Part shown: positions 1 to 7,208 of the stretch, one piece after another | How positions within the stretch are numbered: position 1 is the stretch's first letter | Layout: each line of letters opens with the position of its first letter | Assembly: GCA_021821235.1 (NCBI GenBank) | Contig: JAKACS010000151.1 | Location: forward strand, 1-7,208 | DNA length: 7,208 bases | Direction: 5' to 3' | Source of the DNA: Bacillota bacterium | GTDB taxonomy: Bacteria > Bacillota > Bacilli > Bacillales_B > DSM-18226 | Position numbers and translations under genes: made by a program | The notes under the pieces: generated by a model | Seen by the model: only the letters and a program-made list of their open reading frames with translations | Told to the model about the DNA's origin: nothing | Databases searched by the model: none

Positions 1-75
1 CAGCTCTTCACCCGAAATGATTTTCCGTGCTCGATTGGCTAAACCAAGTAGTGACATCCATTTTTGTTCCTTCAT
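1..75 (-). CDS. rplGA: L7Ae-family RNA-binding protein YlxQ, N-terminus only
   Basis: Only the first 25 codons are in the window; the gene continues past the left edge. The start MKEQKWMSLLGLANRARKII matches the beginning of YlxQ/RplGA, a small protein (about 100 aa in Bacillus) of the ribosomal L7Ae/L30e family that binds kink-turn RNA. The ATG at 73-75 overlaps the TGA of rnpM as ATGA, a typical translational-coupling overlap. An AAGGAG site lies inside the end of rnpM, but about 14 nt upstream, so coupling may matter more than direct initiation. The start leaves eight residues before the LLGLANRARK core, as I recall for B. subtilis YlxQ. The identity rests on this core and on gene order (nusA-ylxR-ylxQ-infB). 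The rest of the protein cannot be judged. Confidence 0.85.
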   Translation of the reverse strand, partial: MKEQKWMSLLGLANRARKIISGEEL

Positions 76-356
76 TTGGATAGTCGGTTCTCCTTCTCGA
101 TTAGCTCTAACAGCTCATCATATAACTTGTCATCGATCGGAACTTGTAAATGATTCGCTAAACTATTTTTTTTCTTGGCTAATTCAACTGCTTCCTTCTC
201 TTTTGAAAGGTATGCCCCCCTGCCGGATTTTTTTCCAGTCAGATCGATTGAGACTTCCCCTTCCTTGGAACGAACGATGCGAACGAGTTCTTTTTTCGGT
301 TTCATTTCACCGGTTGCCACACATTTGCGCATTGGAACTTTTCTGCGAGTGTTCAC
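72..356 (-). CDS. rnpM: RNase P modulator RnpM (YlxR family)
   Basis: This is a 94-aa basic protein of the YlxR (DUF448) family. Visible family marks are RKCVATGE near residues 10-17, the charged stretch KPKKELVRIVRS, and the signature GRGAYL at about 45-50. In B. subtilis the homologue has been reported to bind RNase P RNA and modulate its activity; that role is taken from the family, not from this sequence. I chose GTG at 354-356 as the start because the AAGGGGG site at 364-370 lies 7 nt from it. The in-frame ATG at 360-362 is only 1 nt from that site, too close for normal initiation. The gene sits 18 nt after nusA and overlaps rplGA by 4 nt, so it is in the same operon. Length is normal and nothing appears broken. 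Confidence 0.9.
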   Translation of the reverse strand: MNTRRKVPMRKCVATGEMKPKKELVRIVRSKEGEVSIDLTGKKSGRGAYLSKEKEAVELAKKKNSLANHLQVPIDDKLYDELLELIEKENRLSK

Positions 357-363
357 GATCATT

Positions 364-374: not shown

Positions 375-1499
375 TTATTCCACTTCATCTTCTGTATCAT
401 CAAAGCCAAAATCGGTATCGTCTTCAAAGAGTTTAATGGTCTCTTCTCTTGGATAGATTCCTAATTCGCGTGCTTCTGATTCCGATCTAACGTCGATTTT
501 CCAACCAGTTAATTTCGCAGCAAGCCGGGCATTTTGACCGCGTTTTCCAATTGCCAGCGACAGCTGGTAGTCAGGAACGATCACCGTTGTAGCTTTTTCA
601 GCTTCATTCACATTAACATCCAATACTTTCGATGGGCTAAGTGAGTTAGCTACAAATACGACTGGATCATCGGACCATTTTACGATATCGATTTTTTCCC
701 CTTTTAGTTCATTGACAATTGCCTGAACCCTTGAACCTTTCGGGCCTACACATGAGCCGACAGGATCCACTTCCGCATTATCGGAATGAACGGAAATCTT
801 TGAACGGTCGCCAGCTTCGCGTGCCACCGATTTAATTTCTACAGTGCCATCATATATTTCAGGAACTTCAATCTCAAACAAGCGTTTTAACAGTCCAGGA
901 TGTGTTCTTGACACAAAAATTTGCGGCCCTTTTGTTGTTTTTTCAACTTTTGTTATAAAAACCTTAATGCGATCGTGCGGCTGATAGCGTTCGTTCGGCA
1001 TTTGCTCATTGACCGGGAGGATTGCCTCAATTTTCCCTAAACTGACATATATAAACTTCGAATCAATTCGCTGAACGATTCCTGTCATGATATCTTCTTC
1101 ACGGTCAATAAATTCGGAATAAATAATCCCTCTTTCTGCTTCTCTAACACGCTGGGTGACCACCTGTTTAGCAGTTTGAGCCGCAATTCGGCCAAAATTC
1201 TTTGGCGTGACTTCAAGTTCAACAACATCTTCTACTTGATAATTCGGATTAATATTTCTTGCTTCCTCTAGAGAAATTTCCAATCGCGGATCAAAAACTT
1301 GATCGACAACTTCTTTTCTGGCAAAAACACGCATCGAGCCTGTTTGCAGATTAAGATCAATTCGCACATTTTGTGCTTGATTAAAATTACGGCGGTATGC
1401 CGACACAAGTGCTGCTTCAATTGCTTCAATTAAAACATCTCTGGAAATACCTTTTTCTTTTTCCAGCAATGTAAGAGCATCTAATAATTCGCTGCTCAT
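375..1499 (-). CDS. nusA: transcription termination/antitermination factor NusA
   Basis: This 374-aa protein is the length expected of Bacillus NusA (about 371 aa). NusA binds RNA polymerase near the RNA exit channel and promotes pausing and intrinsic termination. In order: the N-terminal polymerase-binding domain (about 1-125, beginning MSSELLDALTLLEKEKGISR), an S1 RNA-binding domain (about 133-200, with DIMTGIVQRIDSKFIYVSLG), then two KH domains with GxxG loops at GPKG (252-255) and IGKRGQ (317-322). It ends in a short acidic tail and lacks the extra C-terminal repeats of E. coli NusA, as usual in Firmicutes. The ATG at 1497-1499 has a GAAGGGGGA ribosome site at 1508-1516, 8 nt upstream. 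The 106-nt gap to rimP holds no clear promoter. In B. subtilis NusA acts back on its own operon leader; a candidate site lies upstream of rimP. Confidence 0.97.
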   Translation of the reverse strand: MSSELLDALTLLEKEKGISRDVLIEAIEAALVSAYRRNFNQAQNVRIDLNLQTGSMRVFARKEVVDQVFDPRLEISLEEARNINPNYQVEDVVELEVTPKNFGRIAAQTAKQVVTQRVREAERGIIYSEFIDREEDIMTGIVQRIDSKFIYVSLGKIEAILPVNEQMPNERYQPHDRIKVFITKVEKTTKGPQIFVSRTHPGLLKRLFEIEVPEIYDGTVEIKSVAREAGDRSKISVHSDNAEVDPVGSCVGPKGSRVQAIVNELKGEKIDIVKWSDDPVVFVANSLSPSKVLDVNVNEAEKATTVIVPDYQLSLAIGKRGQNARLAAKLTGWKIDVRSESEARELGIYPREETIKLFEDDTDFGFDDTEDEVE

Positions 1500-1605: not shown

Positions 1606-2076
1606 TTAGGAAAAGCTGATTGCCAACCGGGCGCTGGCAACTTTCTCATAAGGAATTTCAACTATTTTCTTTCTTGTTTTGATCTTTACTTCAATCGATA
1701 CCGTAACTCCGTCAAATGTTAGCAATTTGCCTTCAAACCCTTTTTCACCATCGATCGGTTCGTATGTTTTCACAAGGATTTGCTTGCCTATGGCCTTTTC
1801 AAAGTCGTTCGCCTTTTTCAACGGCCGCTCAGCCCCTGGGGAGGACACTTCAAGAAAATAGTTGTGCGGAATCGGGTCGAGCTCATCCAATTTTTCACTG
1901 AGTTTTTCGCTAACTACACCGCACTCTTCAATGTCAACACCGGTATCTTTATCGATATAAACGCGAAGAAACCAGTTCTTGCCTTCTTTTACGTACTCGA
2001 CTTCCACCAATTCAAGATCAAGTTCAGTGACAATCGGTTTCGTCAGTTCTTCGACGATTTCCGTTACTTTGCTCAT
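1606..2076 (-). CDS. rimP: ribosome maturation factor RimP
   Basis: This 156-aa protein is the same length as B. subtilis RimP (formerly YlxS). RimP assists maturation of the 30S ribosomal subunit. The N-terminal alpha/beta domain (about 1-85) carries the family motif [13 protein letters not shown] at 75-87, followed by a small Sm-like beta-barrel domain (about 88-156). An in-frame GTG at 2097 would add MKRRLWS, but that segment is the ribosome site itself (AAGGAGGT at 2085-2092). The ATG at 2074-2076 lies 8 nt after it and gives the canonical [10 protein letters not shown] start, so I use that. It is the first gene of the rimP-nusA-rnpM-rplGA unit, behind its own promoter and leader hairpin. 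No frame damage is seen. Confidence 0.96.
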
Positions 2077-2084
2077 GCTCCATA

Positions 2085-2092
2085 ACCTCCTT
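2085..2092 (-). promoter_or_regulatory. ribosome binding site of rimP
   Basis: The minus strand reads AAGGAGGT, a near-perfect Shine-Dalgarno sequence, 8 nt before the ATG at 2076. It rules out the longer reading that begins at 2097. Confidence 0.85.
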
Positions 2093-2144
2093 TTCACGAA
2101 TTTATACGTGTTAACATAGGACGTTTTTTAGAAATAAGTGCACA

Positions 2145-2264: not shown

Positions 2265-3670
2265 CTAGAAGAGTGAGAGCTGGTTTTGTTCCGGTAAGTC
2301 TGCCAAACAGCCTTGTTTATCTAAATATTCGATTATCGTTTTGGATACTTTCCCTCGCTGCTGCAAATCTTCTTTTGATAAAAACTCTCCATCTTTACGG
2401 GCATTAACAATATTAATTGCGGCGTTGGTTCCAAGCCCTGGAATGGCATTAAACGGCGGTATTAAGGTGTTCCCATCAATAATAAATTCGGATGAAGCCG
2501 ATTTATATAAATTGATTTTTTGGAAGGAATAGCCTCGCTCCGTCATTTCGAGTGCAAGTTCCAGAACAGTTAATAAACTCTTTTCCTTGTTAGAGGCGTC
2601 CAAGCCCTTTGCATTAATTTCTTCAATTTTAGCTCGAATGGCTGCAGAACCGTTCGCCATTGCTTCAACATCAAAATCCTCAGCGCGAACCGTGAAATAA
2701 GCCGCATAATAAAGCAATGGGTGATGCACCTTAAAATACGCAATCCGAACAGCCATCAGCACATACGCAGCTGCGTGCGCCTTAGGAAACATATATTTTA
2801 TTTTTTTGCAGGAATCGATGTACCATTCTGGTACTTCGTTTTTGCGCATTTCGACTTCCATTTCTTCTGTTAGGCCTTTTCCTTTACGGACTGATTCCAT
2901 GATTTTAAAAGCAAATGAGGGTTCAAGTCCCTGATAAATCAAATAAACCATAATATCGTCACGGCAGCCGATCACTTCACTTAGCGTACAAATTTGGTTT
3001 TGAATGAGTTCCTGAGCATTGCCAAGCCAAACGTCAGTACCGTGCGAAAGACCTGAAATCTGAACCAATTCCGAGAAAGTTGTCGGCCTTGTGTCCTCCA
3101 GCATTTGCCGGACAAACCGTGTTCCAAATTCCGGAATTCCAAGTGTACCCGTTTTACACATAATTTGCTCTTCGGTGACCCCAAGCGATTCTGTTCCACT
3201 AAAAATTTTCATCACTTCCGGGTCATCGGTCGGAATGGTTTTTGGGTCAATCCCGCTCAAATCCTGCAGCATCCGGATCACGGTTGGATCATCGTGTCCG
3301 AGAATATCAAGCTTTAAGACGTTGTCATGGATCGAATGGAAGTCAAAATGCGTTGTCCGCCATTCCGAGTTTCGATCATCGGCTGGATATTGAATCGGTG
3401 AAAAATCATAAATATCCATATAATCCGGGACAACAATAATTCCTCCTGGATGCTGTCCAGTCGTTCTTTTTACCCCCGTACAGCCGGAGGCAAGGCGGTC
3501 AATTTCTGCTCCTCGCAAATGCAGATTGTGATCCTGCTGGTAAGCTTTTACATACCCAAAAGCAGTCTTGTCGGCAACAGTGCCAATCGTTCCGGCGCGG
3601 TAAACATACTCCTCACCAAACAATACCTTCGTATAGTTATGCGCCCTTGGCTGATATTCCCCGGAAAAAT
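2265..3670 (-). CDS. polC: PolC DNA polymerase III alpha, 3' exon (C-terminal 467 residues)
   Basis: This is the second exon of the replicative polymerase of low-GC Gram-positives. The join is complement(2265..3670, 6341..7208). Its first two bases (AT) complete the Asn codon begun by the last base of the 5' exon, and it then reads [20 protein letters not shown]. Visible parts: the fingers region with [12 protein letters not shown] and [35 protein letters not shown], whose first Asp corresponds to the third palm aspartate of the DnaE/PolC family; [20 protein letters not shown]; and a C-terminal helix-hairpin-helix-like region ([13 protein letters not shown]). The last residues, QNQLSLF, are the beta-clamp binding peptide. 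The frame is open throughout. By itself this exon has no normal start; an ATG at 3718 inside the intron is in frame. A promoter for rimP follows the stop codon. Confidence 0.96.
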
Positions 3671-3672
3671 AT

Positions 3673-3717
3673 GATGATAGGTAAGCATTTGATATAATCT
3701 CCAGCTTTTCCCCCATC
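3673..3717 (-). ncRNA. group II intron domain VI with branch-point adenosine
   Basis: On the minus strand GATG at 3714-3717 pairs with CATC at 3673-3676. The stem continues through G-U and G-C pairs (GGGG with CCTAT) to AA/TT and GC/GC. The A at 3678, eight nucleotides from the 3' end of the intron, is left unpaired between G-U pairs. This is where the branch nucleotide of a group II intron is expected (7 or 8 nt from the 3' splice site). The fold was drawn by hand and has one A/A mismatch and one extra A. Confidence 0.75.
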
Positions 3718-3719
3718 TC

Positions 3720-3754
3720 ACACCGTACGTGACCCTTTCAGTGTCATACGGCGT
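3720..3754 (-). ncRNA. group II intron domain V (catalytic hairpin)
   Basis: The minus strand holds ACGCCGTAT pairing with GTACGGTGT (nine pairs including wobbles), a two-base AC bulge, and a distal stem capped by a GAAA-type loop (GACACTGAAAGGGTC). The CGC catalytic triad, the AC bulge and the CGTACGG segment are hallmarks of domain V. It is 35 nt where 34 is usual, because the distal stem has either a bulged A or an A/G mismatch. It lies 25 nt after the stop codon of the intron protein and 2 nt before domain VI, in the canonical order. Confidence 0.9.
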
Positions 3755-3779
3755 TCCATCGTTACTATGTCGAAGTTAC

Positions 3780-5603
3780 TCAGCTAAGTTTTGGATTTCC
3801 TACTTCCGTTCTTAGCCCATTTAATCTTTTAATTGCTTTTAAATCAAAACTCTCAATTATTGCTTTATACTTTGGATTTTTTGTTGGATTTATATTATGA
3901 ATTAACATATGGTAGTCCTTTTTTATGATTATTAGATTATCGTAATCATCTGTTCCATTTAGAGAAGTTGGTTTTTTGTGGTGACATATTGCATTAAACG
4001 GAGTTAGTCTTTCACCCGTTATTCCACAGCAACCTTTCTGGGCAACATATTTACTTAGACGGTTATCTTCGTATTTCACACTCTTGGACTTATAGATACC
4101 TTTTCTAAACAATTCTAATTCAGTAATGGACACGTTTTTGATTTCTTTTTGTATGGCTTTTCGGTCGTTTGCATTGTAGATTGAAAACTCAGGTTTTCTT
4201 TGACCTCGTATATCGTGTTTAATTGCTTCCAGCGGATATACTAATATGCCGTTACTCTTAAATCTAGGACATCGGTAACCAGTGTAGAATTTCTCAATCA
4301 CTTTGTTCTTTTCAATTGTTAGATTGAAGATATTTCTATTCGTAAGTGATTTGATGTTTTTGTGTACTCTGTGCCTTATATGGTTAAAATCTTGGGATAC
4401 TCTAGTGGCTATTTTGTAATAGTTTTGCATTCCAAGAATGTTGGCATTGTACATCATAATCTTTTCTGGTGTGGGACTTTTTCTTATCTTAACTAATTTG
4501 TGCCTAATAACCTCTTCGACCTTATTTTTAGATTTAGGACTCATTTTTGAGTTCACTATATATCCAGTTTTTGCAGTTCCCTTATTGACTGCTCGAAACC
4601 TAATTCCTAAGAAATCTGTACCATTTTTACGCAGATTAGTGATTTTACTTTTTTCTTTACTAATCTCCAAGCCAAGTCTTTCTTGTAGCCATTTTTCAAC
4701 AGCTATTTTGATTTTCTTAGCATTGTTAAATGAGTTCGTAAAGATTTTAAAGTCATCAGCATATCTAACAAGGTACATTGGTTTTAGCTTTGTCTTTTTA
4801 AGAGCATCTGTTTTGTTTCTTTTTAATTTATAAGGTATTTTAGTCGGTTTTGTTTCCCATTGATTAGATATCCACCAATCTAGCTCGTTTAATACCACAT
4901 TCGCTAGTAGGGGAGATAATATTCCACCCTGAGGTGTTCCTTTCTCTGGTACTCCATACCCTTTTATTTCGGCTTTTAGCATTTTCTTAATTATCGATAA
5001 TACTTTTTTATCCCGTATTCCAATTGTCCAAAGTTGTTTGATTAGCTTGCTGTGATTGACGTTATCAAAAAATCCTTTTATATCTATGTCTACCACATAG
5101 TGATTGAAGCTATGATTAACTAAGTGATAACACCTAGCTAACGCGTCGTGAGTACTTCTTTTGGGTCTAAAACCGAAGCTATTTGAGTTAAACTTTCCTT
5201 CCATAATAGGTTCAAGAATTTGCAAGAACATTTGCTGAACTAACCTGTCCTCTATTGTTGGAATTCCGAGTGGTCTCAAATCGCCATTAGGTTTTGGAAT
5301 TAGCACTCGTTTCACTGAATGTGGTTCGTAGTCTTCGAGTCTTTTTCTTGTCAATGCAACAAGCTTATCCGTGTCCATCTTTTGTAGATGTTTTATGGTA
5401 TGTCCATTTGTGCCTTTTGTTTTGCTCCCAGTATTACTCTTCAGATTACGATAAGCTAATCTAATGTTTTCTTCCGATATGATTTGCTCATAAAGGTTTT
5501 TAAAGTATCTACCATTGTTACTATCTGCATATAGTGCATCCAACTGACTTTGCATACCAAAGTATTCGTTATTTCTTAACTTTTGTATCATTAAGTCAGC
5601 CAA
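3780..5603 (-). CDS. group II intron-encoded reverse transcriptase/maturase with HNH endonuclease
   Basis: This 607-aa LtrA-type protein helps the intron RNA fold and splice, and copies it into DNA during retrohoming. Domains: an RT-0-like N-terminal part (about 1-90), then the reverse transcriptase with the fixed block IPKPNGDLRPLGIPTIEDR (102-120), VDIDIKGFFDNV (171-182, catalytic Asp), GTPQGGILSPLLAN (222-235) and the active-site box RYADDF (280-285). The maturase (X) region is about 360-450. The C-terminus carries an HNH nuclease: CCGITG (525-530), CHH (540-542), DNL (555-557) and HMLIH (565-569), so second-strand cleavage looks possible. I use the TTG at 5601-5603 because AGGAAGTGA lies 7 nt upstream; the first in-frame ATG is at 5591. 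No frameshift or lost catalytic residue is seen. Hand-counted lines are 28-32% G+C, against 47-55% in polC. Confidence 0.96.
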   Translation of the reverse strand: MADLMIQKLRNNEYFGMQSQLDALYADSNNGRYFKNLYEQIISEENIRLAYRNLKSNTGSKTKGTNGHTIKHLQKMDTDKLVALTRKRLEDYEPHSVKRVLIPKPNGDLRPLGIPTIEDRLVQQMFLQILEPIMEGKFNSNSFGFRPKRSTHDALARCYHLVNHSFNHYVVDIDIKGFFDNVNHSKLIKQLWTIGIRDKKVLSIIKKMLKAEIKGYGVPEKGTPQGGILSPLLANVVLNELDWWISNQWETKPTKIPYKLKRNKTDALKKTKLKPMYLVRYADDFKIFTNSFNNAKKIKIAVEKWLQERLGLEISKEKSKITNLRKNGTDFLGIRFRAVNKGTAKTGYIVNSKMSPKSKNKVEEVIRHKLVKIRKSPTPEKIMMYNANILGMQNYYKIATRVSQDFNHIRHRVHKNIKSLTNRNIFNLTIEKNKVIEKFYTGYRCPRFKSNGILVYPLEAIKHDIRGQRKPEFSIYNANDRKAIQKEIKNVSITELELFRKGIYKSKSVKYEDNRLSKYVAQKGCCGITGERLTPFNAICHHKKPTSLNGTDDYDNLIIIKKDYHMLIHNINPTKNPKYKAIIESFDLKAIKRLNGLRTEVGNPKLS

Positions 5604-5607
5604 CTAA

Positions 5608-5616
5608 TCACTTCCT
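5608..5616 (-). promoter_or_regulatory. ribosome binding site of the intron protein
   Basis: The minus strand reads AGGAAGTGA, one base different from AGGAGGTGA, 7 nt before a TTG codon. It favours the TTG at 5603 over the ATG at 5591. Confidence 0.6.
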
Positions 5617-6017
5617 AGCGAAAGTTTTCGTTTCTTAAAATCTTACGAGAATCTGACTATTTGTAGGTTTTGTTTTCGACGTCACGACTAATGCCCTTCC
5701 CTCAAAAATGTTTTATCCTCGGACTTATTGGTTATTCAGTCGTCATTGGCATTTTCTCAAAGGTACTATGGCATCACTGCCACTCCCGTTAATCTATGTT
5801 ATAGCGAATGCTTTTCCATAGAAACACCTTAAGCGAAGTGCAACCTTCTGATGTGTCGGGAGCTTCTCACGTTCCACTATTTCTATCTGTACATAATCTA
5901 CTTAGGTTCCCCCTAAATCCCGTTGAGCTCGACTGTGCCTGTAACACAGTATGGATTTTCATAACCAAACGCTTACTCATCCACACTCAAAATTCCTAAT
6001 TGGAACCCATACCATTT

Positions 6018-6024
6018 CTGATAT
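6018..6024 (-). other. EBS2 guide sequence of the intron
   Basis: The minus strand reads ATATCAG, the exact reverse complement of CTGATAT in the 5' exon (6349-6355). It lies about 320 nt into the intron, a plausible domain I position. A candidate EBS1 (TTGAGT, 5985-5990) lies downstream but pairs with the exon only through three Watson-Crick and three G-U pairs, so EBS1 is not assigned with confidence. Confidence 0.6.
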
Positions 6025-6340
6025 GTGACATTCACGAGAAGTCAATCGAGGGTTCGTCCCAGTCATTCTACTGATTCTAACCATATAGATTTTATAGACA
6101 CCAGACCTATCATCCACAGAAGCTTTGTAGCTCCTTTTCCTCGCCTCAAACGTTAGGGTGGACTTCAGCCTACTTTAGCGGGCTTCAGACAAAATTTGTT
6201 TTTGCAATACTCCTTATGCCTGCCGCAGCTTCAGTGAGTGTGTTTCAGGGCGTTACTCCATCATTCCACACTTCGAAATAGCAGTTCTACTAGGTATAAA
6301 ACACTAGTGGCTAATCTTTTCAATTAGCAACGTGACGCAC

Positions 6341-6355
6341 TCAAATCAATATCAG
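6341..6355 (-). other. intron-binding sites IBS1 and IBS2 in the polC exon
   Basis: The last exon bases read CTGATAT (IBS2, 6349-6355), TG, then ATTTGA (IBS1, 6341-6346), directly before the intron. They encode the catalytic PDIDL of PolC. IBS2 has a perfect 7-nt partner in the intron; IBS1 is defined mainly by position. Confidence 0.55.
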
Positions 6356-7208
6356 GTACCTTGTCTCCCTTGAAGCCAAGGAAGGTTTCAAACGGAATAT
6401 CGTGGCCGTCTTTACGGTATTTTTCACCGCAGACTGGGCAATTTTTGTTTGGAAGGTCAAAGCCGGATCCGACAGTACCATCATTAAAGAATTCGGAATG
6501 TTTGCAAGCCGGGCAAACATAATGCGGCGGAAGCGGATTTACCTCCGTTATTTCGGTCATCGTCGCAACAAGCGAGGAACCAACCGATCCCCTCGAACCG
6601 ACGAGATAGCCGTCATCAAGAGATTTCTTCACCAATTTATGAGCAATTAAGTAGATTACCGCAAATCCGTGACCGATAATACTCTTTAATTCCTTTTCAA
6701 GCCGGGCTTCAACAATTTCCGGGAGCGGGTCACCATAGATTTTATGAGCCATTGCATAGCTCATTTGCCGCATTTCATCTTCAGCGCCTTCAATTCTTGG
6801 CGTGTACAAATCATCTTTAATCGGCTTGATAAAATCAATCATATCTGCAATTTTATTCGTATTTGTCACAACGATTTCCTTTGCTTTTTCAGCACCTAAA
6901 AACTGAAATTCTGCAAGCATTTCATTCGTTGTCCGGAAATGAACATCTGGGAGTTGGTGGCGGTTTAGCGGATTCGCTCCTCCTTGTGAATGAACAAGGA
7001 TTTTTCGGTAGACTTTATCCGTTTCATTTAAATAGTGAACATTGCCGGTAGCGACAACAGGGATACCCAGTTTATCACCGAGTTTCACAATATTGCCGAT
7101 GATTTCTTCCAACGCCTTTTCATCACGAATCAATTCCATTTCAATCAACGGCGCGTATACAGGCTTCGGCATCACTTCAAGATAATCGTAAAAACCGGCA
7201 AAGGCTTC
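6341..7208 (-). CDS. polC: PolC DNA polymerase III alpha, 5' exon (internal 289 residues; gene start outside window)
   Basis: This exon runs in frame from the right edge for 289 codons plus one base. Counting from the window edge: the end of the PHP-type region ([13 protein letters not shown], about 48-60); the palm motif [15 protein letters not shown] (201-215) with the GSRGSVGSS phosphate-binding loop; a zinc site with C232, C235, C257 and C260 (CPAC...CPVC), typical of PolC; and [13 protein letters not shown] (277-289), whose Asp286 and Asp288 are the first two catalytic aspartates. The coding sequence ends on the first base of the next Asn codon at 6341, where the intron begins. Unspliced, translation would add SASRC and stop at 6324-6326. 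With the 3' exon, 757 residues of PolC are in the window; a full Bacillus PolC has about 1437, so roughly 680 N-terminal residues lie beyond the edge. Confidence 0.96.

Follow-up and report, generated by a model that had tools for sequence, protein, structure and literature searches.

Does a group II intron that cuts the catalytic motif of a replicative DNA polymerase leave the gene readable, and how did it come to be there? The question is raised by the window (the whole stretch of DNA analysed, 7,208 nucleotides), in which polC, an essential chromosomal gene, is found in two pieces on the minus strand. A sequence-only reading of this DNA had proposed that a group II intron separates the two pieces. 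Covariance models, the reading frame and 25 relatives with an intron at the same site bear this proposal out.

Anatomy of the interrupted polC gene

The upstream exon (6341..7208, minus strand) is partial, running off the window, and matches positions 686-977 of the PolC model NF001688 with 518.4 bits. The downstream exon, which includes the stop codon (2265..3670, minus), matches positions 978-1444 with 943.9 bits, both flanks thus scoring as one PolC. On the same strand follow rimP (1606..2097; NF000928, 235.9 bits), nusA (375..1499; TIGR01953, 429.8 bits) and rnpM, also called ylxR (72..362; NF047356, 121.8 bits), the usual gene order in Bacillus.

The intron occupies positions 3671..6340 of the minus strand (2670 nt) and lies in phase 1 of a codon within the PDIDL-N motif, as judged from its ends, the reading frame and matches to Rfam models. 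It begins with GTGCGTCACG at 6340 and finishes with CCTATCATCAT at 3671. Group II introns start with GUGYG and end with AY, and the GTGCG...CAT ends of the window intron agree with this consensus. The 5′ ribozyme domains match RF02004 (group-II-D1D4-5) at 6091..6289 (minus, 157.5 bits, E 3.4e-36), while domains V and VI match RF00029 (Intron_gpII) at 3671..3756 (minus, 48.6 bits against a gathering score of 40). The latter match ends exactly at 3671. The A at 3678 (minus), eighth base from the 3′ end, is bulged in the minimum-energy fold of the last 95 nt of the intron and is the probable branch point of domain VI. The intron may belong to the bacterial class B, or IIB, subclass.

Joining 6341 to 3670 yields one frame of 757 codons, reading PDIDLNFSGEY across the junction and closed by a single terminal stop; the two other frames of the joined exons contain 36 and 67 stops. 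The unspliced frame stops after SASRC. Thus the boundaries proposed from the letters alone were exact, as the ends and the 3′ limit of the Rfam match both indicate, and the consensus ends, the restored motif and the premature stop were all found as described. In an alignment with the solved PolC structures 3f2b and 9qpc, the restored motif falls on their PDIDLNF; the Asp residues of this motif bind the catalytic metals. An intein is excluded by the stop after SASRC, and the Pfam matches of the intron-encoded protein (IEP) and the two polC ORFs include no intein domain. Only group II families were detected in the window at Rfam gathering thresholds, with no group I intron.

The intron carries an ORF for a reverse transcriptase/maturase of 607 aa with a TTG start (3780..5603, minus; TIGR04416, 354.8 bits for a cut-off of 300; RVT_1, 142.8 bits). 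A YADD motif and a C-terminal HNH-like stretch were recognised by eye, and some homologues, P0009 for example, have a precomputed PF01844 match. Comparison with the IEPs of Priestia flexa and Bacillus sp. B1-b2, the two pairs in which dS was measurable (it was saturated in seven others), gave dN/dS values of 0.067 and 0.078, indicative of purifying selection. With its IEP open over 607 codons, the window intron falls outside the class of IEP-less group II introns.

One polC nucleotide in many genomes

Introns were read at the same polC nucleotide in 25 further cases, 26 counting the window, and every one has ends that restore PDIDLNFSG in phase 1. About half of the additional cases came to light in a scan of genome contigs for the IEP: 13 of its 78 loci are introns at this nucleotide, hosted by Priestia flexa, Anaerobacillus, Kurthia (2), Metasolibacillus, Lysinibacillus, Mesobacillus (2), Domibacillus, Niallia and three Bacillus sp. 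Sampling by family gave the frequency of the interruption. Among 121 genomes of the Niallia nealsonii family, 120 had a polC match; the site was interrupted in 10 of these and intact in 109. The remaining genome, G074, was rejected as a split polC: 41 polC residues are missing there and the gap holds no intron. The Lysinibacillus family had the site interrupted in 9 of 100 genomes (101 sampled) and the Priestia family in 3 of 16. Pooled over the three families, the intron is present in 22 of 236 polC-bearing genomes, a figure that includes the three sample centres and seven more cases already known from the IEP scan. Across the class, 6 of 398 genomes matched a 5′-junction pattern, and of these the centre alone reads as polC; the backward control pattern matched 2 genomes, and single matches of the class-wide pattern can therefore be chance. 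The intron thus appears rare outside the three sampled families. The same pattern also matched D-Y-D-A exons, with one mismatch each, in four Bacilli (G254, G435, G506 and G376).

As in the window, the unspliced frame is short in nearly all of the 16 relatives displayed: 11 stop directly after SASRC, SATRC or SAPRC and 4 a few codons on, while one shows no stop within the 30 codons displayed.

Two readings would dispense with splicing, and we consider both very improbable. The first holds that the interrupted polC is a dead or dispensable copy and that the cell uses another, uninterrupted gene. The sequence-only reading had called for a search for such a second polC. The 13 relatives taken from the IEP scan and the 12 taken from the family samples showed none; each of these 25 relative genomes has one polC, split at the site. 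In the window, moreover, the exons are open and, over 178 residues around the junction, share 85-95% identity with the 109 intact PolCs, and the neighbouring genes stand in their usual order, all of which argues against a discarded copy. A second PolC-like stretch, 50% identical, was noted beside an intact polC at G194:C1:2014201-2014581. In G040 (locus L081), the polC 5′ exon appears frameshifted upstream of an IEP-less intron, by sequencing error or real decay.

According to the second reading, PolC is made as two polypeptides, translation of the downstream one beginning at a start codon within domain VI. Domain VI is indeed open in frame with the 3′ exon, in the window (3716-3671) as in homologues. 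An in-frame AUG lies in this domain of the window intron, 16 codons before the junction, and 14 among the 120 matches listed are PolC C-terminal proteins of 477-483 aa that cover 99-100% of the ORF. The open domain VI and, in the window, its AUG lead gene callers to list the second half of polC (477-483 aa) separately. Three of the 26 introns, in contrast, have no ATG, GTG or TTG in the open stretch of domain VI, and in the remaining ones both the kind of start and its place vary. The cut would also divide the catalytic Asp motif, and the two-piece arrangement leaves unexplained the exact splice ends as well as the retention of the ribozyme in copies that have lost the IEP. An assembly artefact at the join has practically no probability left. 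Nothing was found in its favour, and the 25 further introns at this nucleotide come from other assemblies, five on contigs longer than 1 Mb; they make chance and misassembly very unlikely and, for the intron family, dispose of the artefact reading.

The reading that we favour is that of an intron spliced from the polC message. Of the 26 copies, 12 have an IEP that is open over 607 codons or more and 5 have an interrupted one, while the other 9 have lost it by deletion or keep a remnant; the Anaerobacillus and Lysinibacillus IEPs are interrupted by one TAA only, possibly a sequencing error. Intron lengths at the site range accordingly from 757 to 2677 nt. All 9 IEP-less introns score above the gathering cut-offs of both ribozyme models, with 145.3-159.8 bits for RF02004. 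Other reverse transcriptases, which could act as helpers in trans, are encoded in 8 of the 9 genomes concerned. In the ninth, G547, no reverse transcriptase was found at E values up to 0.001 (2 candidates, neither of which matched) in a search whose control gave hits in 3 of 14 known genomes and in an assembly of unstated completeness. A second group II intron was seen in polC of Priestia flexa (L001 7826-8905). It measures 1080 nt, has no IEP (its longest open stretch is 76 codons), matches RF00029 with 55 bits and the 5′-domain model not at all, and sits in another conserved PolC motif; omitting both introns yields a PolC frame of 1448 codons.

Probable movement between genera and recognition of the target

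Ribozyme and exon identities were weakly correlated when 20 introns were compared in 190 pairs (r 0.23). The Kurthia pair has introns of 99.7% identity within exons of 80.5% identity, and the introns of P. flexa and Anaerobacillus are 97.6% identical within exons of 76.2%; Niallia and G091 show the reverse trend (introns 89.6%, exons 93.0%). Trees were compared for groups chosen after the identities had been seen. The intron tree unites the window with Niallia (94/89), a grouping rejected by the exon data (p 9.3e-5), while the exon tree unites Niallia with G091 (100/100), a grouping rejected by the intron data (p 0.014). The exon data allow a grouping of P. flexa with Anaerobacillus (p 0.176), so this pair taken alone is no proof of transfer. 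The conflict between exon and intron trees points to lateral movement between genera, and the intron is probably a mobile one that arrived repeatedly at a single polC site.

Among the genomes searched, a close IEP occurs in polC only: outside polC, no copy exceeded 56% identity in one set of 20 genomes and none exceeded 55% in another set of 6. Searches of mobile DNA gave no close match, and hence identified no phage or plasmid vector. None of 27 viral-contig stretches that matched a pattern encodes an IEP relative; all 347 plasmid records (E limit 1e-100) were below 60% identity, with one short DNA match; and phage matches, in 6 records, covered 3-7% of the intron.

More distant relatives of the intron lie in comparable places. 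Four Clostridia loci (L011, L013, L014 and L053) contain related introns in phase 1 at the homologous codon of dnaE, in a PDID-x-D motif. The upstream exons of three score best with NF005298 (DNA polymerase III alpha, 508.5-554.9 bits) and far lower with PolC models; L013, whose upstream frame is broken, was assigned by the motif. All four genomes also have a polC match that covers, in a single frame, 642 or more of the 645 query residues. At L022, L023, L055 and L046, related introns in phase 1 interrupt UvrD-type helicase genes at DEYQD or GDQNQ motifs; the assignment follows from PF00580 for L022 (253.6 bits) and L046 (189.8 bits) and from the motif for L023 and L055. The helicase cases suggest a wider taste for conserved enzyme motifs. 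A provisional identity of L021 and L064 as coupling-protein genes was dropped, as there was no Pfam match.

As the search for the guide sequence EBS1 was ambiguous in single introns, covariation was examined over 37 introns with different targets, 6 of 43 having been dropped for a doubtful 5′ start or alignment. This placed EBS1 (UUUGGU) at intron positions 372-377, that is 5964..5969 on the minus strand of the window, where it pairs with the exon sequence IBS1 (AUUUGA, 6341..6346, minus). A probable EBS2 (AAUGUCA, 6026..6032, minus) would pair with a probable IBS2 (UGAUAUU, 6348..6354, minus); the evidence is weaker than for EBS1, another nearby stretch scoring slightly higher for the window alone. 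The EBS1-IBS1 helix of the window (A-U, G·U, U-U mismatch, U·G, U·G, A-U) has five of six positions paired and is weak, with two Watson-Crick pairs, three wobbles and a mismatch at -3 that is common to 17 of the 26 introns.

The window guide was compared with a selection of 20 sites (17 top-ranked, 3 near the bottom) among the 109 intact ones in polC. The invariant exon positions -1, -6, -9, -10, -12 and -13 had a Watson-Crick partner in 20 of 20. All 20 sites had a pairing guide base opposite the synonymous positions -4, -5 and -11, and 19 of the 20 had one opposite -2. The guide mismatches the invariant position -3. If -8 and -14 are part of EBS2, it also mismatches these, in 14 and 16 of the 20 sites respectively. 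The idea that wobbles fall on degenerate positions, formed on polC, was then tested on 12 of the 17 non-polC introns among the 37 (five were left out for short or unclear frames, L013 was kept on its motif); L050 lacked the EBS1 context, leaving 11. Degenerate positions in these showed 12 wobbles, 8 Watson-Crick pairs and 2 mismatches, as against 3 wobbles, 40 Watson-Crick pairs and 1 mismatch at non-degenerate positions (wobble versus Watson-Crick, Fisher p 1.3e-5, a value too small because the rows are related rather than independent, four being dnaE and three lying at one DEYQD site). At two-fold degenerate positions the guide base was synonym-tolerant in 16 of 16 (G 10/10, U 6/6). The pattern recurs across several target families, and polC rows with distinct pairs gave 11 wobbles, 7 Watson-Crick pairs and 3 mismatches at degenerate positions and 0, 22 and 5 elsewhere. 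A counter-case is Bacillus sp. B1-b2, which has an open IEP and a non-tolerant A at -5. In G040, whose IEP-less intron has the longest branch of the intron tree, EBS1 is the perfect complement of its own exon; this one case is as expected if tolerance matters only to mobile introns. A guide selected for tolerance and an exon that drifts only where wobble allows fit these counts alike.

Taken together, the data make it highly probable that we are dealing with a site-specific mobile group II intron of replicative polymerase genes, spliced from polC mRNA and retrohoming into polC. The intron RNA would fold within the polC pre-mRNA and, assisted by the IEP as maturase, would be removed at 6341/3670 to restore full-length PolC; splicing in the cell is suggested by the structure, the exact boundaries and the frame. 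The excised RNA with the IEP may then retrohome into empty polC alleles, EBS1 and EBS2 recognising the PDIDL-N codons, a pairing and a spread to which covariation and tree conflict point. Growth and viability would then depend on splicing, imprecise loss would presumably be lethal, and the target could not easily mutate away. Residence in an essential, nearly invariant motif would account for the persistence of the intron despite decay or deletion of the IEP. We further postulate, tentatively and at slightly less than even likelihood, that this lineage specialised on the catalytic codons of replicases with a guide matched to codon degeneracy (G opposite C/T and U opposite A/G at synonymous positions), which would allow homing into many related genera; that the maturase was later lost and exit blocked; and that some bacteria, such as G547, obtain the product of their only polC by splicing that is maturase-free or host-assisted.

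Relation to known systems

Housekeeping genes that contain group II introns have been described before; a lineage at the catalytic codon of polC has apparently not been reported previously. Our literature search, which covered a minority of the subscription papers, found no report of a group II intron in polC, and a prior description is possible. A close case is one that Chee and Takami reportedly described in 2005, in recA of Geobacillus kaustophilus. There too the host is related to Bacillus and the group II intron lies in a housekeeping gene of the chromosome; compared by description, the polC intron differs in residing in a replicative polymerase, within the catalytic motif and at a site common to many genera. 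Mobile introns of the Ll.LtrB type sit in relaxase genes of conjugative elements. They home into a conserved enzyme gene and are spliced with the help of the IEP, as proposed for the polC intron, whereas polC is chromosomal and essential and not part of a mobile element. In cyanobacteria, the dnaE, dnaN and ribonucleotide reductase genes carry group II introns as well as inteins.

An intein in dnaE of Thiomargarita is described in PMC4853749. Like the cyanobacterial elements, it is a parasitic sequence in a replication gene; inteins act as proteins and stay in frame, unlike the polC intron with its stop codons and its ribozyme. In the review PMC4424553, most bacterial group II introns are placed outside housekeeping genes, those inside being exceptions, and the survey PMC2814812 states that group II introns, unlike inteins and group I introns, have no significant preference for conserved sites. 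In settling time and again at the catalytic codon of the replicase, the present lineage acts as an RNA version of an intein. As natural cases open to testing, it provides bacteria in which replicase would be supplied by way of ribozyme splicing, along with repeated maturase loss and a guide RNA that apparently tolerates synonymous changes in its target. Splicing-only group II introns exist in organelles, according to PMC4424553. Nine of the 26 polC-site introns, the window not among them, resemble these in having lost the IEP and kept the ribozyme in a housekeeping gene; they differ in being bacterial and in having IEP-bearing sisters at the same site. If the tentative postulate made above for G547 is correct, the IEP-less polC introns would be a bacterial parallel to the splicing-only introns of organelles.
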